Assembly (NCBI RefSeq): GCF_016805305.1
Contig: NZ_JAERQN010000016.1
Location: 1 to 64,000 of the forward strand
DNA: 64,000 nucleotides
Reading direction: 5' to 3'
From: Falsiroseomonas ponticola
Lineage (GTDB): Bacteria; Pseudomonadota; Alphaproteobacteria; Acetobacterales; Acetobacteraceae
Positions 8,314 through 64,000 of this stretch are shown here, piece after piece. Position numbers and translations under genes: made by a program. Under the pieces are notes generated by a model. It searched no databases, was not told the origin of the DNA, and saw only the letters and a program-made list of their open reading frames with translations. How positions within the stretch are numbered: the first letter of the stretch is position 1; each line of letters begins with the position of its first letter.

Positions 8314-9927
8314 TCAGCCCTCCAGCCAGACATGCTTGGCGAAGTCGAAGCCCATCAAGTTGCCGACCGGGATCGGCGACAGGCCCCGCAGCCGGCTGAC
8401 ATGGCCGTCCAGCATGGATTGGAAGACCGGGATGCCGATGCCCGACTCGTTGTGGATCATCACCTGCATGTCGGCATACATCTGGCGCCGCCGCGCCTCA
8501 TCCGTCTCCGCCCGCGCGGCGGAGAGCAGCTGGTCGAATTGCGGGTTCTTCCAGCTGCTCTCGTTCCAGGCCGCGTCGGACTTGAAGAAGAGCGTCAGCA
8601 GGATGTCGGCGGAAGGCCGCGGGTTGATGGCGCCGAAGCCGAGCGGATGCTTGAACCAGTGGTTGGACCAGTAGCCATCCGCGGGCACGCGCCGCACCTC
8701 CAGGTTCATGCCGATGCGGGAGCCCGTCTGCTGCATGACCTGCGCCATGTCCACGGAATTCGGCGCGGCCGGCGAACAGACCAGCGGCAGCGAGGTGGAG
8801 CCGACGCCGGATCGCTGGAAGTGGAAGCGGGCGCGATCCAGGTCGAAGGGCCGCTGCGGCAGGCCGGCGAAGTGGAAGCGGTTGGTGGGGTCGATCGGCT
8901 GGTCGTTGCCGACCACGCCGTAGTTGCGCAGGATCGCGGTGCGCATCTGCTCCCGGTCGAACATGTGCTTCATGGCCAGCACGAAGTCCGGGTTGCTGGC
9001 GGGCGACATGTCGAGCCGCATGACGAGGTTGGTGTAGTAGCCCGACTTCGTCTCGAACACCCCATGCCCGGCGGCCTGGGTGATGCGGCGGACGGAGCGC
9101 GGATCGACGCCCGCGATCAGCTGCACGTCGCCCGACAGCAGCGCATTGACGCGCGCCTGCTCATCCGGGATGCCGATGAACTCGACCTCGTCCAGGTGCC
9201 CCTTGCCGGCCTGCCAGTAGTTCGGGTTGCGCTGCGCGATGGACCGCACGCCGGGCTGGAATTCGCGGCAGGTGAAGGCGCCAGTGCCGATGGCGGTGGA
9301 GAAATCCGTCGTGCCGGCCTTGATGATGTGGAAGTGGAAGGTCGCCAGCACCACGGGCAGGTCGGCATTCGGGCTGTCCAGCGTGATGCGGACCTCATCC
9401 GGCGCGGTCGCCACGATCTCCGTCATCGGCATGGCGAGCGAGCGGGCCCGCGAGGCCGTGGCGGGATCCTTGTGCCGGTTGAGGGAGAAGACGACGTCCT
9501 CCGCCGTCAGCGGCTTGCCGTCATGGAAGGTGACGCCGCGGCGCAGCTTGAAGGTCCAGACCTTCGCCCCTTCCTGCTGCCAGCTTTCCGCAAGCGCGGG
9601 CCGCGGCGTCAGGCTGCCGTCGAAGGTGGTGAGCCCGTCATAGAACATGTTGCAGCGGGCATAGTCGGTGGAGAGCGACTGCTTCGCCGGGTCCAGCGTA
9701 TCGGCGGTGGAGGTGGAAGTGCCGGAGACGCGGATGCGCCCGCCGCGCCGCGGGGTCTGCGCCACGGCTTCCTTCGCCGCGCCGAAGATGCCGCCCGCGG
9801 TGGCCGCCGCCATGCCGCCGGCGCCGAGCATGCCGAGCAGGTCGCGCCGCGTGGCGCCCCGGCGCACGGCATCCAGCACGCGGGCCTGGTCGGCCTGTCC
9901 GAGAAGTTCCAGTTCGTTGCTTGCCAT
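8314..9927 (-). CDS. ABC transporter substrate-binding protein, family 5 (peptide/opine)
   Basis: A 537-residue periplasmic binding protein of solute-binding family 5. A twin-arginine-type signal is visible: RRDLLG at 27-32, then an alanine/glycine-rich stretch and likely cleavage near AVAQ at 57. The mature part has the family segments TLDPAKQSLSTDYARCNMFY and GVTFHDGKPLTAEDVVFSLN. The ATG at 9927 is preceded by AAGGAGG, which decides against longer in-frame starts. It lies 41 bases after the aminotransferase stop and 18 bases before the permease gene. Cargo is unknown; the adjacent aminotransferase points to an amino-group-bearing compound. Confidence 0.93.
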   Translation of the reverse strand: MASNELELLGQADQARVLDAVRRGATRRDLLGMLGAGGMAAATAGGIFGAAKEAVAQTPRRGGRIRVSGTSTSTADTLDPAKQSLSTDYARCNMFYDGLTTFDGSLTPRPALAESWQQEGAKVWTFKLRRGVTFHDGKPLTAEDVVFSLNRHKDPATASRARSLAMPMTEIVATAPDEVRITLDSPNADLPVVLATFHFHIIKAGTTDFSTAIGTGAFTCREFQPGVRSIAQRNPNYWQAGKGHLDEVEFIGIPDEQARVNALLSGDVQLIAGVDPRSVRRITQAAGHGVFETKSGYYTNLVMRLDMSPASNPDFVLAMKHMFDREQMRTAILRNYGVVGNDQPIDPTNRFHFAGLPQRPFDLDRARFHFQRSGVGSTSLPLVCSPAAPNSVDMAQVMQQTGSRIGMNLEVRRVPADGYWSNHWFKHPLGFGAINPRPSADILLTLFFKSDAAWNESSWKNPQFDQLLSAARAETDEARRRQMYADMQVMIHNESGIGIPVFQSMLDGHVSRLRGLSPIPVGNLMGFDFAKHVWLEG

Positions 9928-12371: not shown

Positions 12372-13498
12372 GCGGGCGGTCCTTGGGCGAAGCGGCTGAT
12401 GTGGAAGGGCTCGATGGGGATGCCGGCGCTGCCGGTCGCGATCAGCTCCGCCATGGTGGCGCCGACGCCGGGGCCGAGCTGGAAGCCATGGCCGCAGAAG
12501 CCGAAGGCGTAGAACAGGCCGGGGACCTTGCCGCTCGGCCCCATCACCGGGATGTCGTCCGCCATGTAGCCCTCCACCCCGCTCCAGGTCCGGATGATGG
12601 ACAGCGCGCGGATCGGCGGCAGCAGCCGCGCGAGGTGCGGCAGCTGCGCCAGCGTGTTCAGCGGGTCCAGCCGCGCGCGCCTGGTGTCGAGCGAGGCTTC
12701 GCTTCGCGCGCCGCCGCCGAAGACGATGTTCCCGCGCTTCACCTGGCGGAGATAGACGCCTTCCTCCTTCACCGTGGTCGCGATGCCCATGACCGGGGCG
12801 ATGCGGTAGGGCATGGGCTCCGTCACGCCCATCTGCGGCGCGGCCGGGGTGATCGGCACGGGCTCCCCGAAGGCGGCCGCCATCCGCCCGCCCCAGGCGC
12901 CGGCGGAGATCTGCAGCAGCGGCGCGCGGAAGGTGCCGATCGCCGTCTCCACGACGAAGTCCCCGGCGGATTTCGCGATGCCGAGCACCGCCGCGCCCTC
13001 ATGCACCACCGCCCCCGCGCGCCGCGCCGCGCGGGCGAAGGCGGGGGCGGCCAGGCGCGGATTGGCGTGGCCATCCAGCGGCGAATGCGATGCCATCCGC
13101 GCCGCCGGGGAGAGGTAGGGAAAGCGGTCGCGCAGCGCGTTGCCGGTGATGAGGTCGAGATCGAGCCCCCATTCCCGCGCCGCCGCCGCATGCGCCACCA
13201 GCCTTGCCTCATCCTCCTCCCGGAAGGCGATGCGGAGATGGCCGGAGGGGAGGAATTCCGCATCCTCCCCGATGATGCCGGGCAGGTCGCCCCAGATGGC
13301 GCGCGACCGGTTGGCCAGCGGTAGTTGCGGCAGGAAGCGGCCCTGGCGGCGGACATTGCCGAAATTCGTGCCGCTGGCATGGCTGCCGACCAGGTCCCGT
13401 TCCAGCAGGATCACGGACAGGCCGCGCTGACGCAGGAAGAAGGCGGTGGCCGTGCCCATCAGCCCGCCACCCACGATGATGACGTCGGCCTGGTTCAT
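12368..13498 (-). CDS. FAD-dependent oxidoreductase, DAO family (opine/amino-acid dehydrogenase beta-like)
   Basis: A 376-residue DAO-family flavoprotein. VIIVGGGLMGTATAFFLRQR forms the N-terminal FAD site, SGTNFGNVRRQGR the flavin loop, and FYAFGFCGHGFQLGPGVG the C-terminal FAD site. In HcnABC, opine oxidases and heteromeric D-hydroxyproline/proline dehydrogenases this is the catalytic subunit that oxidises the amino-acid-like substrate. The ATG at 13498 overlaps the alpha-subunit stop by 4 bases; conserved sequence begins immediately. Order here is gamma (2Fe-2S), alpha, beta, then TctC. The substrate (opine, D-amino acid, hydroxyproline or glycine-like) cannot be told from sequence. Confidence 0.88.
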   Translation of the reverse strand: MNQADVIIVGGGLMGTATAFFLRQRGLSVILLERDLVGSHASGTNFGNVRRQGRFLPQLPLANRSRAIWGDLPGIIGEDAEFLPSGHLRIAFREEDEARLVAHAAAAREWGLDLDLITGNALRDRFPYLSPAARMASHSPLDGHANPRLAAPAFARAARRAGAVVHEGAAVLGIAKSAGDFVVETAIGTFRAPLLQISAGAWGGRMAAAFGEPVPITPAAPQMGVTEPMPYRIAPVMGIATTVKEEGVYLRQVKRGNIVFGGGARSEASLDTRRARLDPLNTLAQLPHLARLLPPIRALSIIRTWSGVEGYMADDIPVMGPSGKVPGLFYAFGFCGHGFQLGPGVGATMAELIATGSAGIPIEPFHISRFAQGPPA

Positions 13499-14868
13499 GG
13501 CGCGGCCTCCGTCGCCAGGGGCAGCGGCTTGACCGGGGCGGCGCCGCGCAGCCGGCCGGCCTGCGCCACCGGGATCCCGCAGGCGGCGGCCAGCACCTCC
13601 GCCGCCGCGGGGCCGCACATGCGCCCCTGGCAGCGGCCCATGCCGGTGCGGCTGAAGGCCTTGGCGCGGTTCACCTCCGGCGCGCCGTATGCGCCGCCGG
13701 CCTGGCGCAGCGCGCCCGCGGTGATGGCCTCGCAGCGGCAGACCAGGGTTTCGTCGGGCAGGCCCGGGGCGAGATGCGCGGGATAGGGAAAGGCGCGCTC
13801 CAGGCCGCGGCGGAAGCGCGTCATCCCCGCCAGGCGCCGGCGCAGCGTGACCATCTCCAGTTCATCCACCGCCAGGCCGGCATCGCGCAGCGCGGCGCAG
13901 GCGGCGAGCCGCCCGGCCAGTTCCGCCGCATCGGCGCCGCGGATCTGCGCCCCGTCGCCTGCCAGGTACACGCCCGGCACGCTGGACCGCCCATCCCCAT
14001 CCGTCACCGGCAGCCAGAGCCGGGCGCCGCGATCGAAGGCGAAGGCGCAACCGGCGAGGTCCGCCAGCTGCGTCTCCGGCCGCAGCCCGTAGCCCATGCC
14101 GATGCCGTCGCAGGCGGTGCGGTGCTCCATCCCCGCCCCGTCCCGCCAGCGCAGCGCCGCGACGCGACTCTCGCCTTCCACGCCCAGCGGCGTGATGCCG
14201 GTGGCGATGCGGACGCCGGCCCGTTGCAGCGCGACCGTATAGGCCAGCCCGCGCGCCAGCAGGCCGGGGCGGGCGGCCAGCCAGGGCGCCGCCAGCACGC
14301 GCTTCGCGAAGGCGCTGGTATCCAGCACCGCCCGCACCGCCACGCCCGCCTTCAGGTATTGCCAGGCCACGAGGTAGAGGAGGGGCCCGGTGCCGAGGAA
14401 CACCGGTTCCCTTCCGATCACGCAGCCCTGCGCCTTCAGCGCGATCTGCGCGCCGCCGAGGCTCGTCACCCCCGGCAGGGTCCAGCCGGGCAGGGGCATG
14501 ATGCGGTCGGTGGCGCCGGTGGCCAGGATGAGGTGCCGGAACGGCAGGGCTTCGTGCTGGCCGGCGCGGTTCACCAGCAGCGTGCCGTCCCGGATCGCCC
14601 AGACCAGCGTCCCCGGCCGCCAATCCACCCGGGCGTGCAAGGCCTGCGCGGCTTCGTGCAGCGCGCGGGCCTTGGGGGCTTCCGCGCCGTACAGCGCCTC
14701 CGGCGGGCGGCGGAAGCCTTCGGGCTGGCGGCGGTAGATCTGGCCGCCATCGCGGGCGGATTCCTCCACCACGGTCGGGCGGATGCCGGCGGCCACCAGC
14801 CGCTCCGCGGCGCGGATGCCGGCGGGCCCGGCGCCGACGATGACCACGCCGCCCCCCGTCACGGCCAT
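13495..14868 (-). CDS. FAD/NAD(P)-dependent dehydrogenase alpha subunit with BFD-like [2Fe-2S] domain
   Basis: A 457-residue subunit of the OoxA/HcnB type. It has an N-terminal FAD site (GGGVVIVGAGPAGIRAAERL), a second dinucleotide fold (VFLGTGPLLYLVAWQYLKAG), and a C-terminal BFD-like [2Fe-2S] site with cysteines in LVCRCEAITAG and GRCQGRMCG (CxC...Cx4C). It would pass electrons between the DAO-type subunit and the small ferredoxin subunit, probably at the inner face of the membrane. I chose the ATG at 14868, which overlaps the 2Fe-2S gene by 10 bases and is directly followed by the FAD motif; the open frame further upstream is a shadow. Confidence 0.88.
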   Translation of the reverse strand: MAVTGGGVVIVGAGPAGIRAAERLVAAGIRPTVVEESARDGGQIYRRQPEGFRRPPEALYGAEAPKARALHEAAQALHARVDWRPGTLVWAIRDGTLLVNRAGQHEALPFRHLILATGATDRIMPLPGWTLPGVTSLGGAQIALKAQGCVIGREPVFLGTGPLLYLVAWQYLKAGVAVRAVLDTSAFAKRVLAAPWLAARPGLLARGLAYTVALQRAGVRIATGITPLGVEGESRVAALRWRDGAGMEHRTACDGIGMGYGLRPETQLADLAGCAFAFDRGARLWLPVTDGDGRSSVPGVYLAGDGAQIRGADAAELAGRLAACAALRDAGLAVDELEMVTLRRRLAGMTRFRRGLERAFPYPAHLAPGLPDETLVCRCEAITAGALRQAGGAYGAPEVNRAKAFSRTGMGRCQGRMCGPAAAEVLAAACGIPVAQAGRLRGAAPVKPLPLATEAAP

Positions 14869-53366: not shown

Positions 53367-54305
53367 GTGAGCGGCGCGAGCACCCTGCCGGCCGACGTCG
53401 CACTCGGCACCGCCGAGCGCCGGCGGGGAAGGCGGCGGGCGGCGCTGTCCCGCACCGCGACGGCGGGCGGCTTCCTGCTGCCCGCCACGCTTCTGTTCAC
53501 CCTTTTCGTCGTGCTGCCGGTGGTGGAGGCGGCCTGGTACAGCTTCTACCGCTGGAACGGCTACGGCACGCCGACGAACTGGGTGGGCTGGCGGAACTAC
53601 GAATTGCTGTTCAGCAACGCCGTCTTCGCCTCCGCCGCCACCAACACGATGATGGTGGTCGCGGTCTCCCTGTTGCTGCAACTGCCGCTGGCGCTGTGGC
53701 TGGCGATGCTGGTGGCGCGCGGCGGGCGCGGCAGCACGATCTTCCGCACCATCTTCTTCCTGCCCTATGTGCTGGGGGAGGTCGCGGCCGGCCTGATCTG
53801 GCGCTTCATCTTCGATGGCAATGTCGGGCTGATCGCCGCCGCCGCGCGCGCCCTGGGCTTCGAGCCGCCCTTCCTCCTCGCCGATCCCGACATGGCGATC
53901 TACACGATCCTTGCCGTCGTGGTCTGGAAGTACTTCGGCTTCCACATGATGATCTATGTCGCGGGGCTGCAGGACATCCCGCGGGAGTTGAAGGAAGCCG
54001 CGGCGATCGACGGTGCCTCGCGCTGGCAGTCCTTCCGCTACGTCATCCTGCCGATGCTGTGGCCGGCGATCCGCATCTCCATCTTCTTTTCCGTCGTCGG
54101 ATCGCTGCAGCTCTTCGACGTGGTGATGCCGCTGACGGGCGGCGGGCCCTCCAACGCCACGCATACCGTGGTCAGCTTCCAATACACCTTCGGCATCACA
54201 CGCATGAACATCGGCTTCGGCAGCGCGGTCGGCGTGGTGCTCTTCCTGGTCTGCGTCGGCTTCACGCTGCTCTACCGGCGCTTCGTGCTGCGGGAGCGTG
54301 ATTGA
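53367..54305 (+). CDS. CUT1-type sugar ABC transporter permease 1 (MalF-like)
   Basis: A 312-residue permease with six predicted membrane segments starting at FLLPATLLFTLFVVLPVVEA. The MalF-type EAA motif ELKEAAAIDGASRWQSFRYV contacts the ATPase. The start is a GTG at 53367 with AGGAGGAGGCGGG upstream. Its TGA shares a base with the ATG of the second permease gene. No ATPase gene accompanies it. Confidence 0.92.
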   Translation: MSGASTLPADVALGTAERRRGRRRAALSRTATAGGFLLPATLLFTLFVVLPVVEAAWYSFYRWNGYGTPTNWVGWRNYELLFSNAVFASAATNTMMVVAVSLLLQLPLALWLAMLVARGGRGSTIFRTIFFLPYVLGEVAAGLIWRFIFDGNVGLIAAAARALGFEPPFLLADPDMAIYTILAVVVWKYFGFHMMIYVAGLQDIPRELKEAAAIDGASRWQSFRYVILPMLWPAIRISIFFSVVGSLQLFDVVMPLTGGGPSNATHTVVSFQYTFGITRMNIGFGSAVGVVLFLVCVGFTLLYRRFVLRERD

Positions 54306-55126
54306 TGCGCGACGAATCGCCGCTGCTCCGCTACCTCTCTTTGCTGCTGGTCGCGGGCTTCGTGCTCGTGCCCCTCCTCACCGTCGCCATCGGCGGTTTC
54401 AAGACCATGGGCGAGCTGCGGGTGAACCCCTTCGGCCTGCCGGAATCCTGGTTCCCCGACAACTACCTCTCCTCCCTCTTCAGCCAGCGGCTTTGGCTCT
54501 CCCTCGGCAATTCGGTGCTGCTGGCGCTGGGGACGGTGGTGCTGACGCTCATCGTCTCCACCATGGCGGCCTTCGCCTTTGCGCAGATCCATTTCCTTGG
54601 AAAGAAGCTGCTCTTCTCCTATTTCCTGATGGGGCTGCTCTTCCCCGCCGCGACGGCCATCCTGCCGCTCTTTATCCGCGTGCGGAATCTCGGCCTGCTC
54701 GACACCTATTGGGGCGTCATCCTGCCGCAAACCGCCTTCGGACTCGGCATGGCCATCCTGCTGCTCTGGGGATTCTTCCGGCAATTGCCAGAGGCGCTGT
54801 GGGATGCCGCCACCATCGATGGCTGCGGCTATGCGCGCTTCCTCTGGCATGTGGTGCTGCCGCTATCGCGACCGATCCTGGCGACGGTCGCGGTCTTCTC
54901 CCTCGTGCATAGCTGGAACAGCTACCTGCTGCCGCTGACGCTGCTGAACTCGTCCCGCTCCTATCCCTGGACGCTCACCATCATGGATTTCGCCGGCGAA
55001 TACTCCACCGACTGGCCGATGATCCTGGCCTTCATCACCTTGACGCTCGTCCCCGCCGTGGTCTTCTTCCTTGTCGCGCAGAAGCAGATCGTCGCCGGGC
55101 TCACGAGCGGTGCCGTGAAGGGCTGA
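54305..55126 (+). CDS. CUT1-type sugar ABC transporter permease 2 (MalG-like)
   Basis: A 273-residue permease with the EAA motif ALWDAATIDGCGYARFLWHV. The N-terminal LRYLSLLLVAGFVLVPLLTV helix and the C-terminal QKQIVAGLTSGAVKG are typical of MalG-like subunits. I use the ATG at 54305 (TGATG overlap with permease 1); an in-frame TTG is one codon upstream. Works with permease 1 and an ATPase encoded elsewhere, perhaps a shared MsmK/UgpC-type subunit (inference). Confidence 0.92.
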   Translation: MRDESPLLRYLSLLLVAGFVLVPLLTVAIGGFKTMGELRVNPFGLPESWFPDNYLSSLFSQRLWLSLGNSVLLALGTVVLTLIVSTMAAFAFAQIHFLGKKLLFSYFLMGLLFPAATAILPLFIRVRNLGLLDTYWGVILPQTAFGLGMAILLLWGFFRQLPEALWDAATIDGCGYARFLWHVVLPLSRPILATVAVFSLVHSWNSYLLPLTLLNSSRSYPWTLTIMDFAGEYSTDWPMILAFITLTLVPAVVFFLVAQKQIVAGLTSGAVKG

Positions 55127-55158
55127 TGCCCGACCAAAAGACCGGAGGAAACAACGAT

Positions 55159-56214
55159 ATGCGGACCATCAAGGGCCCTGCCATCTTCCTCGCCCAGTTC
55201 GCGGGTGACGCCGACCCCTACAACAGCCTGGCCGGCATGGCGCGCTGGGCCGCCGGCCATGGCTACAAGGGCGTGCAGATCCCCTCCTGGGACGGGCGCC
55301 TCTTCGACCTCGCCAAGGCCGCGGAGAGCCGCGGCTATTGCGAGGAGGTGCTGGGCATCCTGGGCCAGCACGGCTTGGCGCTGACGGAGCTGTCCACCCA
55401 TCTCCAGGGCCAGCTTGTCGCCGTGCATCCCGCCTATGACCTCGCCTTCGATGGCTTCGCGGCGCCGGAGGTGCGGGGCAAGCCGCAGGCGCGCCAGGCC
55501 TGGGCGGTGGAGCAGATGAAGCTGGCGGCGCGGGCTTCGCGCAACCTCGGCCTGACGGCGCATGCCACCTTCTCCGGCGCGCTCGCCTGGCCCTTCATCT
55601 ATCCCTGGCCGCAGCGCCCGGCAGGCCTGGTGGAGGCGGCCTTCGACGAACTCGCCGCGCGCTGGCGCCCCATCCTCGATGCCTTCGACGAAGCCGGCGT
55701 CGATGTCTGCTACGAGATCCATCCGGGCGAGGACCTGCATGACGGTGCGAGCTTCGAGATGTTCCTCGAGCGCGTCGGCAACCACCCCCGCTGCAACATC
55801 CTCTTTGATCCCAGCCATTTCGTGCTGCAGCAGCTCGACTATCTCGACTACATCGACATCTACCACCAGCGCATCCGCGCCTTCCACGCGAAGGACGCTG
55901 AGTTCAATCCGACCGGGCGGCAGGGCGTCTATGGCGGCTTCCAGCCCTGGGTGAAGCGGGCGGGCCGCTTCCGGTCCCTGGGCGACGGGCAGGTCGATTT
56001 CGCGGCGATCTTCTCCAAGCTCTCGCAATACGGCTACGACGGCTGGGCGGTGCTGGAATGGGAATGCTGCATCAAGGACAGCGAACAGGGCGCCGCGGAA
56101 GGCGCGCCCTTCATCGCCAACCACATCATCCAGGTGGCGTCGCGCGCTTTCGATGACTTCGCCGCCAGCGGCGTGGACATGGCGACCAACCGCAAGCTGC
56201 TGGGGATCGGCTGA
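55159..56214 (+). CDS. Sugar phosphate isomerase/epimerase, xylose isomerase-like TIM barrel
   Basis: A 351-residue AP-endonuclease-2/xylose-isomerase-like TIM-barrel protein. Likely metal-site segments are VCYEIHPGEDLHDG, NILFDPSHFVLQQLDYLDYI, AFHAKDAEF and WAVLEWECC. It is not the true xylose isomerase, which is encoded at 58875; ketose epimerase or sugar-acid isomerase roles are possible. A GGAGGAAA 8 bases upstream picks the ATG at 55159 over the one at 55126 that overlaps the permease stop. It and the next dehydrogenase resemble common sugar-oxidation pairs. Confidence 0.9.
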   Translation: MRTIKGPAIFLAQFAGDADPYNSLAGMARWAAGHGYKGVQIPSWDGRLFDLAKAAESRGYCEEVLGILGQHGLALTELSTHLQGQLVAVHPAYDLAFDGFAAPEVRGKPQARQAWAVEQMKLAARASRNLGLTAHATFSGALAWPFIYPWPQRPAGLVEAAFDELAARWRPILDAFDEAGVDVCYEIHPGEDLHDGASFEMFLERVGNHPRCNILFDPSHFVLQQLDYLDYIDIYHQRIRAFHAKDAEFNPTGRQGVYGGFQPWVKRAGRFRSLGDGQVDFAAIFSKLSQYGYDGWAVLEWECCIKDSEQGAAEGAPFIANHIIQVASRAFDDFAASGVDMATNRKLLGIG

Positions 56215-56215
56215 G

Positions 56216-57397
56216 ATGGTGATCGAGGCAGGCAGGGACGGCGCGGCGGGACGGCGGCTGCGCCTCGGTATGGTCGGCGGCGGGCAGGGGGCCTTCATCG
56301 GCGCCGTGCACCGCATCGCCGCCCGGCTGGATGACCGGTATGAGCTGGTGGCCGGCGCGCTCTCCTCCGACCCCGATCGCGCCCGCGCCAGCGCCGCCGA
56401 CCTGCACATCGCGCCCGACCGCGCCTATGCGGATTACGAGGCGATGGCGGAGGCCGAGGCCGCGCGGCCCGATGGCATCGACGTGGTCGCGATCGTCACG
56501 CCAAACCACCGGCATGCCGGGCCCGTGCAGGCCTTCGCGCGGCGCGGCATCCATGTGATCTGCGACAAGCCGCTGACGCATCGGCTGGAGGATGCGGAAG
56601 CGCTGGCTGCGATGCTGGCGCGCACCGACGTCATCTTCGGCCTGACGCACAACTACACGGGCTATCCCCTGGTGCGGCAGGCGCGGGAGATGGTGGCGCA
56701 AGGTGACCTCGGCGCGCTGCGTGTCGTGCAGGTGGAATATCCGCAGGACTGGCTGACCACGCGGCTGGAGGAGACCGGCCAGAAGCAGGCGGCCTGGCGG
56801 ACCGATCCCGAACGGTCGGGCGCCGCGGGCTGCGCCGGCGATATCGGCACCCATGCCTTCAACCTGGCCGAATTCGTCACCGGGCTTCGCTGCGAAAGCC
56901 TGGCAGCCGAACTCACCCGCTTCGTGCCGGGCCGGCAGCTCGACGACAACGCCCACATGATGCTGCGCTTCGCCGGCGGCGCGCGGGGCATGCTGTGGTC
57001 GTCGCAGGTCGCGCCGGGCAACGAGAACGGCCTGAAGCTCCGCGTCTATGGGGAGAAGGGCGGGCTGGAGTGGCACCAGGAACAGCCCAACACGCTGCGC
57101 CACACGCCCTTCGGCGAACCGTCCCGGCTGATCAGCCGCTCCGGCGCCGGTTCCTCCGCCGTGGCCGGCCATGCCAGCCGCATCCCGGCCGGGCATCCCG
57201 AGGGCTATCTGGAAGGCTTCGCGCAGCTCTACCGCGACCTGGCGGAGCAGATCACGGCCCGGATCGACGGGCGCGACCCCGACCCTGCCTGCCTGCTGGT
57301 GCCCGGCATCGCGGAGGGGCTGCGCGGCATGCGGTTCATCGCGGCCGCGGTGGCTTCGAGCCAGCGCGACGCCGCCTGGACGGACATTCCCGCCTGA
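56216..57397 (+). CDS. Gfo/Idh/MocA family oxidoreductase
   Basis: A 393-residue NAD(P)-dependent dehydrogenase. The nucleotide site is LRLGMVGGGQGAFIGAVHRI; VICDKPLTHRLEDAEAL contains the DKP-type catalytic lysine motif, and CAGDIGTHAFNLAEFVTG holds the D-x3-H pair of the family. The ATG at 56216 is 1 base beyond the epimerase stop; an earlier in-frame start lies over that gene. It may oxidise the transported sugar or its derivative before the kinase step. Confidence 0.91.
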   Translation: MVIEAGRDGAAGRRLRLGMVGGGQGAFIGAVHRIAARLDDRYELVAGALSSDPDRARASAADLHIAPDRAYADYEAMAEAEAARPDGIDVVAIVTPNHRHAGPVQAFARRGIHVICDKPLTHRLEDAEALAAMLARTDVIFGLTHNYTGYPLVRQAREMVAQGDLGALRVVQVEYPQDWLTTRLEETGQKQAAWRTDPERSGAAGCAGDIGTHAFNLAEFVTGLRCESLAAELTRFVPGRQLDDNAHMMLRFAGGARGMLWSSQVAPGNENGLKLRVYGEKGGLEWHQEQPNTLRHTPFGEPSRLISRSGAGSSAVAGHASRIPAGHPEGYLEGFAQLYRDLAEQITARIDGRDPDPACLLVPGIAEGLRGMRFIAAAVASSQRDAAWTDIPA

Positions 57398-58878
57398 TGC
57401 ATCTCGGCCTCGATCTCGGCACCTCCGGCGTGAAGGCCGTGCTGACCGGCGCGGCGGGGGAGGTGCTGGCCCAGGCGACGGCGCCACTCAGCCTGTCCAA
57501 TCCGCATCCGTTGTGGAGCGAGCAGGACCCTCGCGACTGGTGGGACGCGACCGTCGCCGCCATCGCCGCGCTGCGCGGGCAGCGGGACCTGTCCGGCCTG
57601 CGCGGCATCGGTATCGCGGGCCAGATGCATGGCGCCGTGCTGCTGGACGGGGCGGAGCAGGTGCTGCGCCCCGCCATCCTGTGGAATGACGGGCGCAGCC
57701 ACGCGGAATGCCGGGCGCTGGAGGCGGCGGAGCCGCGGTCCCGCGCCATCACCGGCAACCTCGCCATGCCGGGCTTCACCGCGCCCAAGCTGCTCTGGGT
57801 ACGGCACCATGAGCCCGAAATCTTCGCCCGCACGCGCCGCGTTCTGCTGCCCAAGGACTGGCTGCGCCTGCGCCTGACCGGGGAGGCGGTGTCGGAGATG
57901 TCGGACGCCGCCGGCACGCTGTGGCTCGACGTGGCGGCAAGGCGCTGGTCTCCCGAGATGCTGGCGGCGACGGGGCTCGACCTTTCCCACATGCCGCGTC
58001 TGGTGGAGGGCACGGAGGTCGCCGGCCGGCTGCGCGCCGATGTCGCGGCGCAACTCGGCCTGCCGGCGGGCATCCCGGTGGCGGGCGGCGCCGGGGACAA
58101 TGCCGGCGGCGCGGTCGGCATCGGCTGCGTGGCGCCCGGCGATGCCTTCGTCTCGCTCGGCACCTCCGGCGTCGTCTTCGTCAGCGACAAGGGCTTCCTG
58201 CCCGACCCCGAACGCGCCGTGCACGCCTTCTGCCACTGTCTGCCGGATACCTGGCACCGCATGTCGGTCATCCTCTCCGCCGCCGCCTCCCTCGCCTGGC
58301 TGGCGCGGGCCACGGCCACGCCGGAAGCGGCGCTGCTGGCGGAGATGGAAGGGGAGGGGCTGCGCGCCGAAGGGCGTCTTGTCTTCCTGCCCTACCTCTC
58401 CGGGGAGAGGACGCCGCACAACGACGCCGCCGCCACGGGCACCTTCTTCGGCCTGCATGGCAGCACCAGCCGCGCAGACCTGACCCGCGCGGTGCTGGAA
58501 GGCGTCGCCTTCGCGCTGGCCGATGGGGTGGAGGCACTGGAGGCCGCGGGACCGCGCATCCCGTCGCTGACCGCGATCGGCGGCGGCGCGCGCAGCGCCG
58601 CCTGGCTCCGCATCCTCGCCGCCACGCTCGGCCGGCCGATCCTGGCGACGGCGGGGGCGGAGGTCGGGCCCGCCCTCGGCGCCGCAAGGCTGGCGCGCAT
58701 CGCCTGCGGCGACGGCACGGTGGCGGAGACCTGCGTGAAGCCGCCCGTCGCCGCCTGCCACGAAGCGGATCCCGCGCTCGCCGCCTCGCTTCTCAACCGG
58801 CGCGAGGCATACCGACGCCTCTATCCGGCGCTGCGTGACGTTTTCGCCGACACCGCCCGCATGGAACAGCCCGCATGA
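57397..58878 (+). CDS. xylB: Xylulokinase
   Basis: A 493-residue FGGY-family kinase that phosphorylates D-xylulose to xylulose 5-phosphate. Motifs are the N-terminal phosphate loop [54 protein letters not shown], the catalytic [14 protein letters not shown] and [14 protein letters not shown]. The length is normal for XylB. It overlaps the dehydrogenase stop by one base (TGATG) and the xylA start by 4 bases (ATGA), so the two xylose enzymes are coupled. Confidence 0.94.
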
Positions 58879-60188
58879 GCACCGCCTTCGACCACCTGCC
58901 GCACCTCCGCTACGCCGGCCCGGACGCCACGGGGCCCTTCGCGCTGCGGCACTACGATGCCAGCCGCGTCGTGCTGGGCCGCACCATGGCGGAATGGCTG
59001 CGCCCCTCCGTCGCCTATTGGCATTCCTTCGTCGGCACCGGCGCCGATCCCTTCGGCGCGCCGACCATGGACCGCCCCTGGTTCGGCGCATCCGATCCGA
59101 TGGAAGGCGCGCGCATGAAGGCCGAGGCGGCCTTCGCCTTCATGGAGCGCCTCGGCCTGCCCTTCTTCTGCTTCCACGACCGGGACGTGGCGCCGGAGGG
59201 GGCCACGCTGCGGGAGAGCAACGCCAACCTCGACCGGATGCTGGAGGTGGTGCAGACTCACATGGCCCGCACCGGCATCGCGCTGCTCTGGGGCACGGCC
59301 AACCTCTTCAGCCATCCCCGCTACATGGCCGGCGCCGCCACCAACCCGGACCCCGAGGTCTTTGCCTTCGCCGCCGGCCAGGTGAAGCATGTGCTGGAGG
59401 CGACGCACCGCCTGGGCGGTGCCAACTACGTGCTCTGGGGCGGTCGCGAAGGCTACGATACGCTGCTCAACACCGACCTGGCGCGGGAGGATGCGCAACT
59501 CGGACGCTTCCTCAACCTCGTCGTCGATCACAAGCACCGGATCGGCTTCAAGGGCACCATCCTGATCGAGCCCAAGCCCATGGAGCCCACCAAGCACCAA
59601 TACGACCGCGATGTCGCGACGGTGTACGGCTTCCTCGCCCGGCACGGCCTGGCGAAGGAGGTGAAGGTGAACATCGAGGCCAACCACGCGACACTCGCCG
59701 GCCACAGCTTCGAGCATGAGATCGCAACCGCCGCCGCGCTCGGCATCCTCGGCTCGCTCGACATGAACCGGGGCGATCCGCAGAATGGCTGGGACACCGA
59801 CCAGTTCCCGAACAATGCGCAGGATTTGTCGCTGGCGATGCTGGAGGTGGTTCGCGCCGGCGGCCTCGGCACGGGCGGCATCAACTTCGACGCCAAGATC
59901 AGGCGCCAGAGCATCGACGCCGAGGATTTGATGCACGCCCATGCCGGCGGCCTCGATTGCTGCGCGCGCGCCCTGCTGATCGCTGAACGCATCGTGCAGG
60001 ACGGCACGCTCGACCGGCTGCGGGCCGAACGCTACGCGGGCTGGGATGCGCCGACGGGGCGGGCGATCCTGGAAGGCCGCATGGGGCTCGATGCGCTGGC
60101 GGCGCATGCAGAAGCCGGTGGCGCCGGCCCCGCGCCCCGCAGCGGCCGCCAGGAAGCGCTGGAAAACCTGGCCGCGCGCTTCGCCTGA
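58875..60188 (+). CDS. xylA: Xylose isomerase
   Basis: A 437-residue class II xylose isomerase that converts D-xylose to D-xylulose. Diagnostic blocks are [14 protein letters not shown] with the catalytic His, [46 protein letters not shown] and [20 protein letters not shown] with the metal-binding acids. The length is typical of class II. It overlaps xylB by 4 bases, making isomerase and kinase a coupled pair downstream of the sugar transporter. Confidence 0.97.
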
Positions 60189-60217: not shown

Positions 60218-61855
60218 ATGGCACGGCGGATCGAGCTTCTCGTCGGCGCGGCCATCGGCCTTGGCATGACCGCCCGCGCCGCGGCCGATGGCGGCGCGGA
60301 TTTCCTGCTGGCGCTGAGCGCCGGGCGGCTGCGCGTCATGGGCGCGCCGTCGCTCGCCGCGATGCTGCCGATCCGCGACAGCAACGCCTTCACCGATGAT
60401 TTCGCGCGCAGCGAGATCCTGGACCGCGTCGCCATCCCCGTCTTCTTCGGCGCCGCCGCCTGCGACCCGCGCATGTCGGTGGAGGCGCTGCTCGGCCGTA
60501 TCCGGGATGCGGGCTACCAGGGTGTGGCGAACTTCCCCACCGCCATCCACCACGACGGTGCCTTCCGCGCGGCGCTGGAACAGGCCGGTCTCGGCTTCGG
60601 GCGGGAGGTCGAGCTGATCCGCGCCGCGCCGCGCTTCGGGCTCGCGACGCTCGGCTATGCCAAGACCCGGGCGGAGGCGGATGCGCTGGTGGATGCCGGG
60701 GTGGGCCGGCTCTGCCTCAACTTCGGCTGGAATTCCGGCGGCAGCCAGGGCGTGCCGAGCGGCGTGCCGATCGACCAGGCGGCGGAACGCGCCAGGCGGG
60801 TCTTCGCCCATGTCCGCCGCCGGGCGCCGGGCACGCTCTGCTTCGTCGAAGGCGGGCCGATCGTGGGGCCGGGCCACCTGATGCAGGTCTGCGATGCGTC
60901 CCGCGCCGATGGCTATGTCGGCGGATCGACGCTCGACCGGCTGCCGCTCGAGATGTCGGTGATGCAAACGACCTCCGCCTTCAAGACGGCCACGTTGCTG
61001 CGCGACGAACCGGCGGGGGAGGCGGAGCGACTGCCGGGGCTGGCCGGGCGATCCCAGGCCATGCGGCAGCTGGCCGCGCGGGTGGCGCGGCTGGTCGCCA
61101 CCGACCTGCCCATCCTGGTGGAGGGCGAGCCCGGATCGGGGCGGACGACCGTCGCCCGCGCGATCCACCAGGGCAGCCGCCGCGCCGGGCCGCTGACGCT
61201 GCTCGACGCGCGGGAGAATATCGGCCCGCGGCTGTTCGGCGGCGGCGGGCCCGCCGCGCTGCTGGCGCTGCGCCACAGCACGGTCGTGGTGGAGAACGCC
61301 GATGCGCTGCCGCCGACGCTGCGGACGCAGCTGGCGGACTGGATCGAGCGCGGCACCTTCGAACGCTTCGCCAAGCCCGGCGAGCGTGTGCCCCGCGCAA
61401 GGCTGGTGCTGACCCATCCCCCGGGCGGAGAGGCGCTGGCGCGCTCCCTCTCCGCCCAGCGCCTGGTGGTGCCCCCGCTGCGGGAGCGGCTGGACGACCT
61501 GCCGCTGCTGGCCAGGGCCATGCTGCGTGGCCTGCATCGCGGATCGGGGGAGCTGGACCCCGGCGTGCTGCGCTTCCTCATGGCCCGCAGCTGGCCCGGC
61601 AACCTGCGCGAGCTGGCCCATGTGCTGACCCGTGCCGCGACCGAGGCGCCGGGCGGGCGAATCACGCTGGCGGCGCTGGAGGCGCAGCTGGGGCCGGCCA
61701 GCGCGGTCTCGGCGCCATCACCGACGGATGAGCGGAGCTGGATCCTGGACGCGCTGCGGCGCCACCGCTTCCGGCGAGGAGAGACCGCGGCCTTCCTCGG
61801 CATCGGCCGCAAGACGCTCTACAACCGGATGCGGCGCCTCGGCATCGAGACCTGA
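60218..61855 (+). CDS. PEP-hydrolase/TIM-barrel domain fused to degenerate sigma-54-type AAA+ and Fis HTH
   Basis: A 545-residue, probably cytoplasmic regulator. Residues 1-265 match the PEP-hydrolase/TIM-barrel family (AACDPRMSVEALLGRIRDAG, GVANFPTA, FVEGGPIVGPGHLMQVC), here perhaps a sensor. Residues 275-470 resemble a sigma-54 activator: Walker A GEPGSGRTT at 303-311, LRERLDDLP at 421-429 and WPGNLREL at 459-466. The GAFTGA loop is absent: PRLFG at 337-341 is followed by GGGPAALLALRHS, and the Walker B DE is EN (VVVENAD at 356-362). Residues 508-541 form a Fis-type HTH (AAFLGIGRKTLYNRMRRLGI). It may be a sigma-54-independent DNA-binding regulator. The ATG has GGAGGA upstream. Confidence 0.85.
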   Translation: MARRIELLVGAAIGLGMTARAAADGGADFLLALSAGRLRVMGAPSLAAMLPIRDSNAFTDDFARSEILDRVAIPVFFGAAACDPRMSVEALLGRIRDAGYQGVANFPTAIHHDGAFRAALEQAGLGFGREVELIRAAPRFGLATLGYAKTRAEADALVDAGVGRLCLNFGWNSGGSQGVPSGVPIDQAAERARRVFAHVRRRAPGTLCFVEGGPIVGPGHLMQVCDASRADGYVGGSTLDRLPLEMSVMQTTSAFKTATLLRDEPAGEAERLPGLAGRSQAMRQLAARVARLVATDLPILVEGEPGSGRTTVARAIHQGSRRAGPLTLLDARENIGPRLFGGGGPAALLALRHSTVVVENADALPPTLRTQLADWIERGTFERFAKPGERVPRARLVLTHPPGGEALARSLSAQRLVVPPLRERLDDLPLLARAMLRGLHRGSGELDPGVLRFLMARSWPGNLRELAHVLTRAATEAPGGRITLAALEAQLGPASAVSAPSPTDERSWILDALRRHRFRRGETAAFLGIGRKTLYNRMRRLGIET

Positions 61856-62448
61856 CCGCTGGCGGTGGCCGCCCAGGCCAGCGCCTCCCCGCCCTCGATC
61901 GCGACATGGCCGGCAAGGTCGGCCCACCATGCCTGCGGGTCGGGCGGCGGCAAGAGGCCCGGATGCAGCAGGATGCGCCGGTGGCCGGCGGCGAGCGCGG
62001 CATCGGCGCCGCGGCGCGTGACGGCGCAGGCGATGGTGGCGAAGCCGGCCTCCCCCAGCCGCTGGAGGAGACGGAACTCGGCCTCTGCCCGGTAGCCGAC
62101 GGCGGCGAGCGCGGCCGCGGTCTCCCCCTCGAACAGCTGCACCGTCGGGTAGTTGACCACGGCGGTGATGCCCGCCTGGCGCAGCGCCGCCACCATGTCC
62201 GCGAGGCGGAGGAAGGGGTCGCAGGCGAAGAGGCCGGCGATGGGCGGCGCGCTGCGGAAGGGGCGCCTGGCCTGCAGCGCGGCGCGGAGCGCGCCGTTGA
62301 TGTCCAGCACGGGCAGCAGCGCGACCAGGGGCCAGCTCTCCGGCGGGAAGGGCTCCAGCGCGGGCAGAAAGACGCTGCGGGCGCGCCGCTGCGGGCTCAA
62401 GGCGTCGAGCCGGGCCTCAGGTTGAAGGACGGTGGGGTGCGGGGGCAT
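61819..62448 (-). CDS. Stand-alone PEP-hydrolase/TIM-barrel-like protein, relative of the 60218 N-terminal domain
   Basis: A 209-residue protein that aligns by eye with the N-terminal domain of the facing regulator: LVALLPVLDINGAL, LFACDPFLRLADMVAALRQA, GITAVVNYPTVQLFEGE, FRLLQRLGEAGFATIACAVT and RRILLHPG correspond to LAAMLPIRDSNAF, AACDPRMSVEALLGRIRDAG, GVANFPTAIHHDG, LIRAAPRFGLATLGYAKT and GRLCLNFG. It lacks the first strand and the last part of the barrel, so it is either truncated or dependent on a partner. No function is known to me. Its 3' end overlaps the regulator gene by 37 bases. No strong ribosome site precedes the ATG at 62448. Confidence 0.75.
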   Translation of the reverse strand: MPPHPTVLQPEARLDALSPQRRARSVFLPALEPFPPESWPLVALLPVLDINGALRAALQARRPFRSAPPIAGLFACDPFLRLADMVAALRQAGITAVVNYPTVQLFEGETAAALAAVGYRAEAEFRLLQRLGEAGFATIACAVTRRGADAALAAGHRRILLHPGLLPPPDPQAWWADLAGHVAIEGGEALAWAATASGQVSMPRRRIRL

Positions 62449-62449
62449 G

Positions 62450-62466
62450 ACCCAATCTTACCCAAT
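62450..62466. promoter_or_regulatory. Direct repeat ACCCAAT x2, 10-bp period
   Basis: ACCCAAT occurs at 62450-62456 and 62460-62466, exactly one helical turn apart, in the 116-base divergent region between the TIM-barrel gene (start 62448) and livH (start 62565). It abuts the minus-strand ATG. It could be a binding site of the neighbouring regulator, but two 7-mers are weak evidence. Confidence 0.3.
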
Positions 62467-62564
62467 ATTGCCGCTCTGTCATCTTGCGGCCCCGCCCGCC
62501 CGGCCGCCATGGTGCCCCCCGAAAGCGGCGCGATGACGCCGCCCGGGGAGGATCGGTCGAGGGC

Positions 62565-63440
62565 ATGGATCTCGCGGCGACCATCGTGCTGAACGGGCTG
62601 ACGCTCGCCGCGCTGTACTTCGTAGTGGCCAGCGGCTTCTCGCTCATCTTCGGGCTCATGCGCGTGGTGAACATGGCGCATGGCGCGATGTATCTCGTGG
62701 CGGGCTATGTCGGCTACGCGGTCTTCGAACCGCTCTATGACCGCGATGTCTGGTACGCCTGGTATGCCGGCCTCGCCGCCGGCGTCGCCTTCGCGGCCGT
62801 CTTCGGCGCGGCGGTGCAGGTGGCGCTGCTCGGCTGGATGCAGGGGCAGGAGCTGCGGCAGGCGTTGGTCACGATCGGCCTGTCCATCATCGTGGCCGAC
62901 CAGCTCCTCGCCTTCTATGGCGGCACGCCGCGGCAGTTCTTCGCCCCCGATGCGATCTTCGGCGCGACGCAGCTGCCGGGCATCGGCGGCTACCCGACCT
63001 TCCGCCTGGTGCAGATCGGCGTCGCGGTCGCGGTCGGCATCGGGCTCTGGCTGCTGCTGAACCGGACGCGGCTTGGCATCATGATCCGCGCCGGCGTGGA
63101 TGACCGGCAGATGCTCGGCGCCTGCGGGGTCAATGTGCCGCTGGTCGGCATCGCGGTCTTCGCCCTGGGCGCGGCGCTGGCGGGGCTCGGCGGCGTCATC
63201 GGCGCCACGGCGCAGCCGCTGGCCATGGGGGCGGATGGGCGCTTCCTGCTGATCTCCCTCGTGGTGGTGATCGTGGGCGGCATGGGCAGCGTCACCGGTA
63301 CGGCGGTGGGTGCCGTGCTGATCGGCCTCGCGGAGCAGATCGGCCAGGCGCTGTTCCCGACCTATTCGGTGATCCTGACCTTCGTCATCATGGTCGCCGT
63401 GCTGGCGCTGCGGCCGCAGGGGATCCTGGGCCGTGCATAG
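62565..63440 (+). CDS. livH: Branched-chain amino-acid-type ABC transporter permease LivH
   Basis: A 291-residue HAAT-family permease with about eight hydrophobic segments. Family blocks are FSLIFGLMRVVNMAHGAMYL, RQALVTIGLSIIVADQLLAF, the cytoplasmic MIRAGVDDRQMLGACGVNVP and ISLVVVIVGGMGSVTGTAVG. The ATG at 62565 is the conserved start; the frame open before it lacks family sequence. Cargo may be an amino acid or another small compound such as an amide or aromatic acid. LivM overlaps its end. Confidence 0.93.
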   Translation: MDLAATIVLNGLTLAALYFVVASGFSLIFGLMRVVNMAHGAMYLVAGYVGYAVFEPLYDRDVWYAWYAGLAAGVAFAAVFGAAVQVALLGWMQGQELRQALVTIGLSIIVADQLLAFYGGTPRQFFAPDAIFGATQLPGIGGYPTFRLVQIGVAVAVGIGLWLLLNRTRLGIMIRAGVDDRQMLGACGVNVPLVGIAVFALGAALAGLGGVIGATAQPLAMGADGRFLLISLVVVIVGGMGSVTGTAVGAVLIGLAEQIGQALFPTYSVILTFVIMVAVLALRPQGILGRA

Positions 63441-64000
63441 GCGCGCGATACCTGCCACGCTGGTCGTGTTGGCGTTGCTGCTGGCGCTGCCCTGGCTGCT
63501 GCCGCAATTCATGCCGGCGAACCAGGCGCAGTTCTGGACGGCGAACATCCTCGGCCGCGCCATCGTCTTCGGCATCATCGCGATGTCGCTCACCTTCCTC
63601 GCGACCTATGGCGGCTTCATCTCGCTCGCGCAGATGATGATCGCGGGTGTCGCGGGCTACACGCTGGCGATCTTCGTGGAGGGTGCCTTGCCGCGGATCG
63701 TCGGTGGCTGGGGCTACGCCGCGGCCATCCCGCTCAGCCTGCTGGCCGCCACGGTGATGGGGCTGGTGGTTGGCGCCATCAGCGTCCGCACGCGCGACAT
63801 CTACCTGCTGATGATCACGCTGGCGCTCGCCATGGGCGTGTTCCGCTTCATCGAGACGAACATCGCCTGGTTCAACGGCTATGAGGGCATCCGCAACGTC
63901 GTCGGCCCGACGGTCTTCGGCCTCGATTTCCGCAATGCCTTCGTCTTCTACCACATCGCGCTCGGCACGGCGGCGGCGCTGTTCCTCGGCGTGCTCTACC
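63433..64000 (+). CDS. livM: Branched-chain amino-acid-type ABC transporter permease LivM (partial, runs off window)
   Basis: An open frame from a GTG at 63433, overlapping the livH stop by 8 bases, and continuing to the window edge (189 complete codons seen). The translation has LivM features: a hydrophobic start (TLVVLALLLALPWLLPQF), AIVFGIIAMSLTFLATYGGF followed by ISLAQMMIAGVAGY, and SVRTRDIYLLMITLALAMGV. The C-terminal part and the expected LivG, LivF and LivK genes lie outside the window. Normal LivM length would be about 320 residues. Confidence 0.88.
   Translation, partial: MHRRAIPATLVVLALLLALPWLLPQFMPANQAQFWTANILGRAIVFGIIAMSLTFLATYGGFISLAQMMIAGVAGYTLAIFVEGALPRIVGGWGYAAAIPLSLLAATVMGLVVGAISVRTRDIYLLMITLALAMGVFRFIETNIAWFNGYEGIRNVVGPTVFGLDFRNAFVFYHIALGTAAALFLGVLY

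Follow-up and report, generated by a model that had tools for sequence, protein, structure and literature searches.

The window, a stretch of 64,000 nucleotides from a contig of Falsiroseomonas ponticola, carries close to its end a regulatory gene, REG, and the first genes of its predicted target operon (Table 1). A ribosome-binding-like GGAGGA stands 5' of the REG start codon. Between REG and the operon lies PH2, a truncated paralogue of the PEP_hydrolase family. Beyond the window, livM is followed by genes for a substrate-binding protein, LivG, LivF, a Tm-1-like protein, a PEP-hydrolase enzyme (68455-69285) and an SRPBCC protein. The gene order REG / PH2 (reverse strand) / livHM-substrate-binding protein-livGF / Tm-1-like / PEP-hydrolase recurs in 25 of 26 GTDB loci, the exception (L059) being cut at a contig end, and the SRPBCC gene is also present in 24 of these 25 syntenic loci (not in L049). 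In the genomes G217 and G299, PH2 is codirectional with REG. Other REG relatives adjoin sugar ABC operons.

Table 1. Coordinates of the features discussed (window positions unless a locus is named).
Feature	Position	Strand	Basis or remark
REG, PEP_hydrolase-AAA+-Fis one-component regulator, 545 aa	60218..61855	+	ORF, Pfam, 24 full-length GTDB homologues, GGAGGA upstream
PEP_hydrolase/TIM-barrel sensor domain, REG residues 6-257	60233..60988	+	Pfam, enzyme comparison, fold match
Degenerate Walker A GEPGSGRT (K->R), REG residues 303-310	61124..61147	+	alignments
Deleted L1/GAFTGA loop (approximate place), REG residues 341-349, LFG..LLAL	61238..61264	+	alignments
Degenerate Walker B VVVEN, REG residues 356-360	61283..61297	+	alignments
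AAA+ lid with WPGNLREL, sensor II arginine kept	61481..61705	+	Pfam, alignment
Fis-type helix-turn-helix, recognition helix RKTLYN	61730..61837	+	Pfam, alignment
PH2, truncated PEP_hydrolase paralogue	61819..62448	-	Pfam positions 76-179 of 267; convergent with REG, overlaps REG 3' end
Predicted REG operator TGACCCAATCTTACCCA	62448..62464	+	consensus TTACCCA-N3-TTACCCA, 1 mismatch
-35-like TTGCGG	62484..62489	+	19 bp after operator
Weak -10-like CATGGT	62508..62513	+	spacer 18, 3/6 matches
LivH-type ABC permease, first gene of predicted target operon	62565..63440	+	start set at conserved MDLAAT
LivM-type permease	63433..64000	+	continues to contig base 64491
G217 regulator	L107 10660-12393		all AAA+ signatures checked are kept
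G217 sigma-54 site TGGCACGGGCGTTGCA, 12/12	L107 9802-9817		~125 bp upstream of livH match

Several observations concern the surroundings of REG. The genes for the Tm-1-like (UPF0261) protein and the PEP-hydrolase form a pair (contig 67241-69285), which adjoins different transporters in different genomes. A partnership of Tm-1-like and TBST proteins has been proposed from co-evolution in the accessible excerpts of one paper, which contain no occurrence of 'sigma' (PMC5028733). In L004, an ORF downstream of the SRPBCC gene (13159-14184) looks, by eye and in translation, like an intradiol dioxygenase. Just upstream of REG, at 53367-60188, CUT-type ABC permeases, IolE-like and Gfo/Idh-like proteins, xylB and xylA are encoded. 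Membership of REG in a xyl operon is unlikely, since among the GTDB loci only L036 shares with the window an xylAB upstream of REG. In five of eight plasmid loci, a short divergent gene at the position of PH2 is annotated as 'hypothetical protein'; of two such genes scanned, one gave a weak Pfam match and the other none.

An earlier note, made from the letters of the window, had described the protein as a PEP-hydrolase/TIM barrel joined to an NtrC-type AAA+ domain and a Fis helix-turn-helix. Profile and structure comparisons bear out this architecture. PF09370 (PEP_hydrolase) matches the barrel with 236.9 bits (cut-off 33.8) over positions 14-266 of the 267 in the model. PF00158 covers residues 276-323 only and, with 35.4 bits, indicates a weak sigma-54-type AAA+ domain; further matches are PF14532 (277-421), AAA_lid_14 (422-496) and HTH_8 (505-540). 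Among the sequences of solved structures, residues 5-257 are nearest to 2p10 (Mll9387, 1.5e-34), and the AAA+ part matches VpsR (second-best), ZraR, NifA, FleQ, NtrX and others. An AlphaFold model from a 46-row alignment reached a mean pLDDT of 81.4 and a pTM of 0.55 (pLDDT of 65.0 with a 25-row alignment). Foldseek assigned its barrel to 2p10 with a TM-score of 0.76 by target length and the remainder to AAA+ chains of NtrX, NtrC4, VpsR and FleQ.

The AAA+ domain is degenerate. LRER..D.P and WPGNLREL are both found and the Walker B acids are EN, as described before. Walker A, said to be kept, is so only in part: in GEPGSGRT its lysine is replaced by arginine. The reported deletion of GAFTGA is confirmed by alignment: an LFG is followed by the Walker B strand within ~15 residues, at a place where five activators from the same genome hold a full GAF[TS]GA loop. 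The arginine finger positions are occupied by a gap and a serine. REG thus lacks GAFTGA, the Walker A lysine, the Walker B acids and the fingers of a bEBP, and it fits the GAFTGA-less class of these proteins by the AAA+ fold and Fis-type helix-turn-helix that it retains and the loop that it has lost. Having shed the sigma-54 contact loop and residues required for ATP hydrolysis, the domain presumably no longer hydrolyses ATP and probably persists in folded form, serving dimerisation or coupling.

The loss is shared by a family. A GTDB scan yielded 26 strong relatives (L036-L061) in Acetobacteraceae-type genera, Arenibaculum, Methylobacterium, Microvirga, Stappia, Aquibium, Aurantimonas and Brucellaceae. 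Full-length sequences from 24 of these make up, together with REG, the alignment set A1 (25 rows); L059 and L061 are cut. Fusion-length matches occur in 14 of 299 genomes of a family sample, and a profile search of a class sample detected the fusion in 9 of 385 genomes, the window's own counted. In a phylum sample (398 genomes), every fusion-length match among those listed belongs to the class of the window. Plasmid searches gave 36 records with matches, 25 of them with a query coverage of 80% or more, which are annotated as 'phosphoenolpyruvate hydrolase family protein', as 'sigma-54-dependent Fis family transcriptional regulator' or without a listed feature; eight of the 36 were analysed. 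The final alignment comprises 44 fusions (the 25 of set A1, G052, G217, nine from the class and phylum samples and eight from plasmids), plus five GAF[TS]GA activators from the window's own genome. GAFTGA is absent from 43 of the 44, the sole exception being G217, so that the conservation of the loss among homologues of the same architecture, which the earlier note had left to be checked, is established. The cut relative L061 likewise lacks the motif. A chance event, a one-off loss or a sequencing error in REG is ruled out by the 24 further full-length GTDB homologues with the same build and loss.

Other AAA+ motifs eroded to different degrees. The Walker A lysine is kept in 11 of the 44 fusions and replaced by arginine in 27; the catalytic glutamate of Walker B occurs in three, the sensor II arginine in 38. 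G299 holds the Walker A lysine and one finger arginine, and six fusions (L112-L117) have no recognisable Walker A. The many different forms of this erosion are what a decaying, functionless fusion would display. Such decay is nevertheless hardly credible for REG, whose frame is open, whose family has many barrel and helix-turn-helix columns invariant across several bacterial families, and whose synteny and cis-site are conserved. A missing sigma factor does not account for the loss of the loop either: rpoN was found in the window's genome and in 22 of 22 other fusion genomes tested, so the disappearance of GAFTGA does not follow a loss of sigma-54. The own genome also encodes at least five activators with GAF[TS]GA.

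The barrel has diverged from its enzymatic relatives at specific positions. The comparison used the columns that at least 95% of 59 PEP_hydrolase enzymes share. H183, T187 and H226 are invariant in 59/59 enzymes, the type that the operon encodes. REG has N168, N172 and E211 in their place. Among the 44 regulators, H183 is replaced by N in 40, T187 by N in 43 and H226 by E in 39. These three belong to 26 enzyme-conserved columns that are altered in the regulators, while glycine, proline, arginine and other framework residues are retained. The role of the three residues in the enzymes is presumably catalytic. The REG barrel therefore looks, from its sequence, like a dead enzyme serving as sensor, a catalytically degenerate copy of the PEP-hydrolase-like enzyme from the same operon. 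It would most likely bind the substrate or product of that enzyme's pathway, or a relative of these. Enzyme-derived effector domains combined with a DNA-binding domain are familiar from MocR/GabR regulators, which have an aminotransferase fold and a winged helix and no AAA+ domain.

The intergenic regions between PH2 and livH have one block in common, the direct repeat TTACCCA-N3-TTACCCA. In the discovery set, 25 of 26 GTDB loci contain it with at most two mismatches and L041 with three. Outside this set, 17 of 19 fusion loci (G217, G052, eight plasmid loci and nine further genomes) have it at the same threshold, giving 42 of 45 for all fusion loci together. G217 has one site at three mismatches only, and G299 none at up to three. 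Control loci with Tm-1-like/PEP-hydrolase genes and without REG, seven of which show livH and several of which are cut by contig ends, gave 0 of 18 at up to two mismatches and one at three. Dinucleotide-shuffled 20-kb loci gave 3.6% at up to two mismatches and 0/900 at up to one. In the own 6.7-Mb genome, the operator upstream of livH is the sole site at up to two mismatches; a backward control pattern scores 4, which makes this uniqueness weak by itself. Of the 299 family genomes, 24 contain the exact core of the repeat, which is found in 9 of 14 REG genomes, each time ~0.7 kb or less from REG, and in 15 of 285 others, in a scan in which the backward pattern scores in scattered genomes too.

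REG loci beside an operon devoid of Liv genes carry the repeat as well; it thus tracks REG rather than livH. That it is a feature of the Liv operon is ruled out by its absence from the seven livH-bearing control loci. Five of the eight plasmid loci (L149-L153) have an additional repeat ahead of an ABC operon distant from PH2, which rules out that the element is a PH2 promoter alone. The repeat faces the operon in all 32 Liv promoters. Twelve further sites, those beside an annotated or matched operon gene, point by eye toward this gene as well (L108:18645, two each in L146, L149 and L151, one each in L147, L148 and L150, L153:1854 and L162:8519). Fis-type helix-turn-helix domains commonly bind inverted repeats, whereas the TTACCCA element is a direct one. 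Its half-sites lie one helical turn apart, and the domain in REG, with which the element is associated across genomes, would recognise it in this form.

Downstream of the repeat, a TTG or TGG starts at +19 to +21 (18-20 bp downstream) in 31 of 32 Liv promoters, not in L044, while windows that do not overlap +19 to +21 score 0-8 for these trinucleotides, which were picked after the sequences had been inspected. The -10 boxes are weak, with a mean best score of 2.71 of 6 in 31 sites versus 2.12 in shuffled sequence. A -35 element and a class I-like activator would be consistent with this phasing. Target promoters had also been proposed for inspection for -24/-12 elements. A strict scan, requiring GG and GC, of 26 PH2-livH stretches from GAFTGA-less loci found none with 10/12 or more and three with 9/12, and the G217 promoter scored 12/12. 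Across G052, the plasmid loci and the nine later loci, there is one site of at least 11/12 in total, in L152. This 11/12 site (15387, reverse strand) is on a plasmid from Bradyrhizobium, ahead of a different gene, a hypothetical one.

In four Stappia/Aquibium promoters a TGGCA[CT]G half persists, but the -12 GC is not preserved. The PH2-livH promoters of L050, L052 and L053 read TGGCACGGATCTTCC, with the -24 half intact and the -12 GC missing; this half may be what remains of a sigma-54 promoter. The retained halves, together with the presence of rpoN and of intact activators in the own genome, would suit a REG that still drives sigma-54 transcription in hetero-oligomers with such an activator. 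We regard this as improbable: strict -24/-12 sites are missing from the 26 promoter stretches, the arginine fingers and Walker motifs are eroded as well, and the genes matched in the GTDB loci, in a comparison confined to genes of the window region, include no recurrent second activator. The proposal of the earlier note, a switch that binds DNA, senses through the barrel and makes no sigma-54 contact, is the reading with the best support, given the loop loss in 43 of 44 fusions, the retention of rpoN and the promoter scan.

Taken together, REG is likely to be a one-component regulator whose sensor derives from an enzyme and whose AAA+ part is a pseudo-ATPase. It would stem from a sigma-54 activator, bind the TTACCCA repeat and probably activate a sigma-70-type promoter. 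Despite its descent it would no longer act via sigma-54. Its most likely task would be to activate the Liv-ABC/Tm-1-like/PEP-hydrolase operon in the manner of a class I-like activator. Repression is the other mode to be weighed. By eye, the repeat borders directly on what looks like the PH2 start codon in the Acetobacteraceae-type group (14 sequences), and in the window a PH2-directed, promoter-like -10 TAAGAT sits inside the repeat. Both would suit a ligand-relieved repressor of PH2, of the Liv operon or of both. This mode is unlikely as the sole function, as the repeat lies upstream of, not over, the operon's -35-like element at a fixed 18-20 bp, keeps a constant orientation to the Liv operon and also precedes ABC operons distant from PH2. 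Because the -10-like box is inside the repeat, REG, while activating the operon, may simultaneously shut off the divergent PH2, whose start adjoins the site.

G217 informs on the ancestry of this arrangement. Its fusion keeps every AAA+ signature checked, GAFTGA included, and TGGCACGGGCGTTGCA is the only 12/12 -24/-12 site within its 20-kb locus. A search for its operator gave only half-sites, at 9860, 9871 and 9889 of L107. In a tree of the barrels, the 44 regulators stand apart from the nine enzymes included (100*); G299 branches first and G217 lies in an unresolved fork just above, both being long-branched, with a warning from the program. In a tree of the AAA+ domains (21 of the 44 regulators plus outside activators), in which the long branches of the eroded rows could affect the branching order, G217 forms the sister branch of a group made up of the 20 other regulators and L067 (99*). 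L067 is an activator that groups with the regulators and in whose locus no barrel was found. A swap of the AAA+ domain in G217 is disfavoured, since this domain is sister to the AAA+ domains of other fusions.

From these trees and motifs, the fusion looks to have arisen once, long ago, with an intact GAFTGA as the likely starting state. Because G217 keeps GAFTGA together with a perfect sigma-54 site, the independence from sigma-54 is probably derived, and G217, the one genome that forms the GAFTGA-positive end of the series, would show the probable ancestral mode. It is conceivable, and only a little short of an even prospect, that the regulator lineage and its target promoter shifted jointly from sigma-54 to sigma-70. 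In such a course, GAFTGA would have been lost first and the ATPase then eroded stepwise, the barrel sensor and helix-turn-helix kept and the TTACCCA operator phased to a -35 element, with stages held in living genomes.

To our knowledge, a change from sigma-54 activator to sigma-70 regulator is otherwise represented by scattered proteins (VpsR and some NtrCs). VpsR of Vibrio cholerae (PDB 7v2b) resembles REG in its bEBP-type AAA+ domain without GAFTGA, and its Walker B acids are ND in an excerpt of a printed alignment. It differs in its other N-terminal domain, its c-di-GMP signal and the lack of a PEP_hydrolase barrel. The accessible sections of two papers report that VpsR acts at sigma-70 promoters (PMC10274813) and works independently of RpoN (PMC5552954). 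Alphaproteobacterial bEBPs without the loop are known as well: NtrC of Rhodobacter capsulatus and of Caulobacter has GAFTGA deleted and, in the same sections, is reported to control sigma-70 promoters (PMC10274813). These NtrCs are, unlike REG, two-component response regulators with different operators and signals. ATP binding has a role in them according to that text (PMC10274813), whereas the REG-type fusions carry K->R in Walker A in 27 of 44 cases. GAFTGA-less bEBPs at sigma-70 promoters are thus already published and the kind itself is known. Mll9387 and other PEP_hydrolase enzymes (2p10), and the TBST domain of plant Tm-1, share the barrel fold of REG. REG differs from the enzymes in lacking the invariant His pair and in its additional AAA+ and helix-turn-helix domains.

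The same fusion occurs on the symbiosis plasmids pNGR234a (WP_010875238, L147 8884-10713) and pMLa (WP_010915926, L148 8508-10337); in the pNGR234a protein it is also borne out by Pfam. As at the REG locus, the regulator stands beside a Tm-1-like/PEP-hydrolase pair and a short PEP_hydrolase-like gene, and the TTACCCA repeat is present. They differ in their Cupin and Gfo/Idh neighbours and in having no Liv ABC operon; pNGR234a has sugar-ABC genes. Both regulators are annotated as 'sigma-54-dependent Fis family transcriptional regulator', yet lack GAFTGA, which suggests that 'sigma-54-dependent' is wrong in the public names of such fusions. The earlier note knew of no described system of this build; the fusion is already present in public annotation. 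A literature search, mostly by listings, found no paper on the fusion, its sensor, its operator, its target operon or a series with a sigma-54 end.

This single family offers a relative whose AAA+ domain is complete, together with intermediate and fully eroded forms; they have the same sensor, a predicted operator and a predicted target operon. The sigma switch thereby becomes testable through promoter and regulator swaps. REG also offers a handle on the uncharacterised Tm-1-like/PEP-hydrolase pathway, as its ligand should name the substrate. The gene y4pA presumably encodes a regulator of this kind. In the accessible part of one paper, a y4pA gene is named as a sigma-54 copy (PMC9069715).
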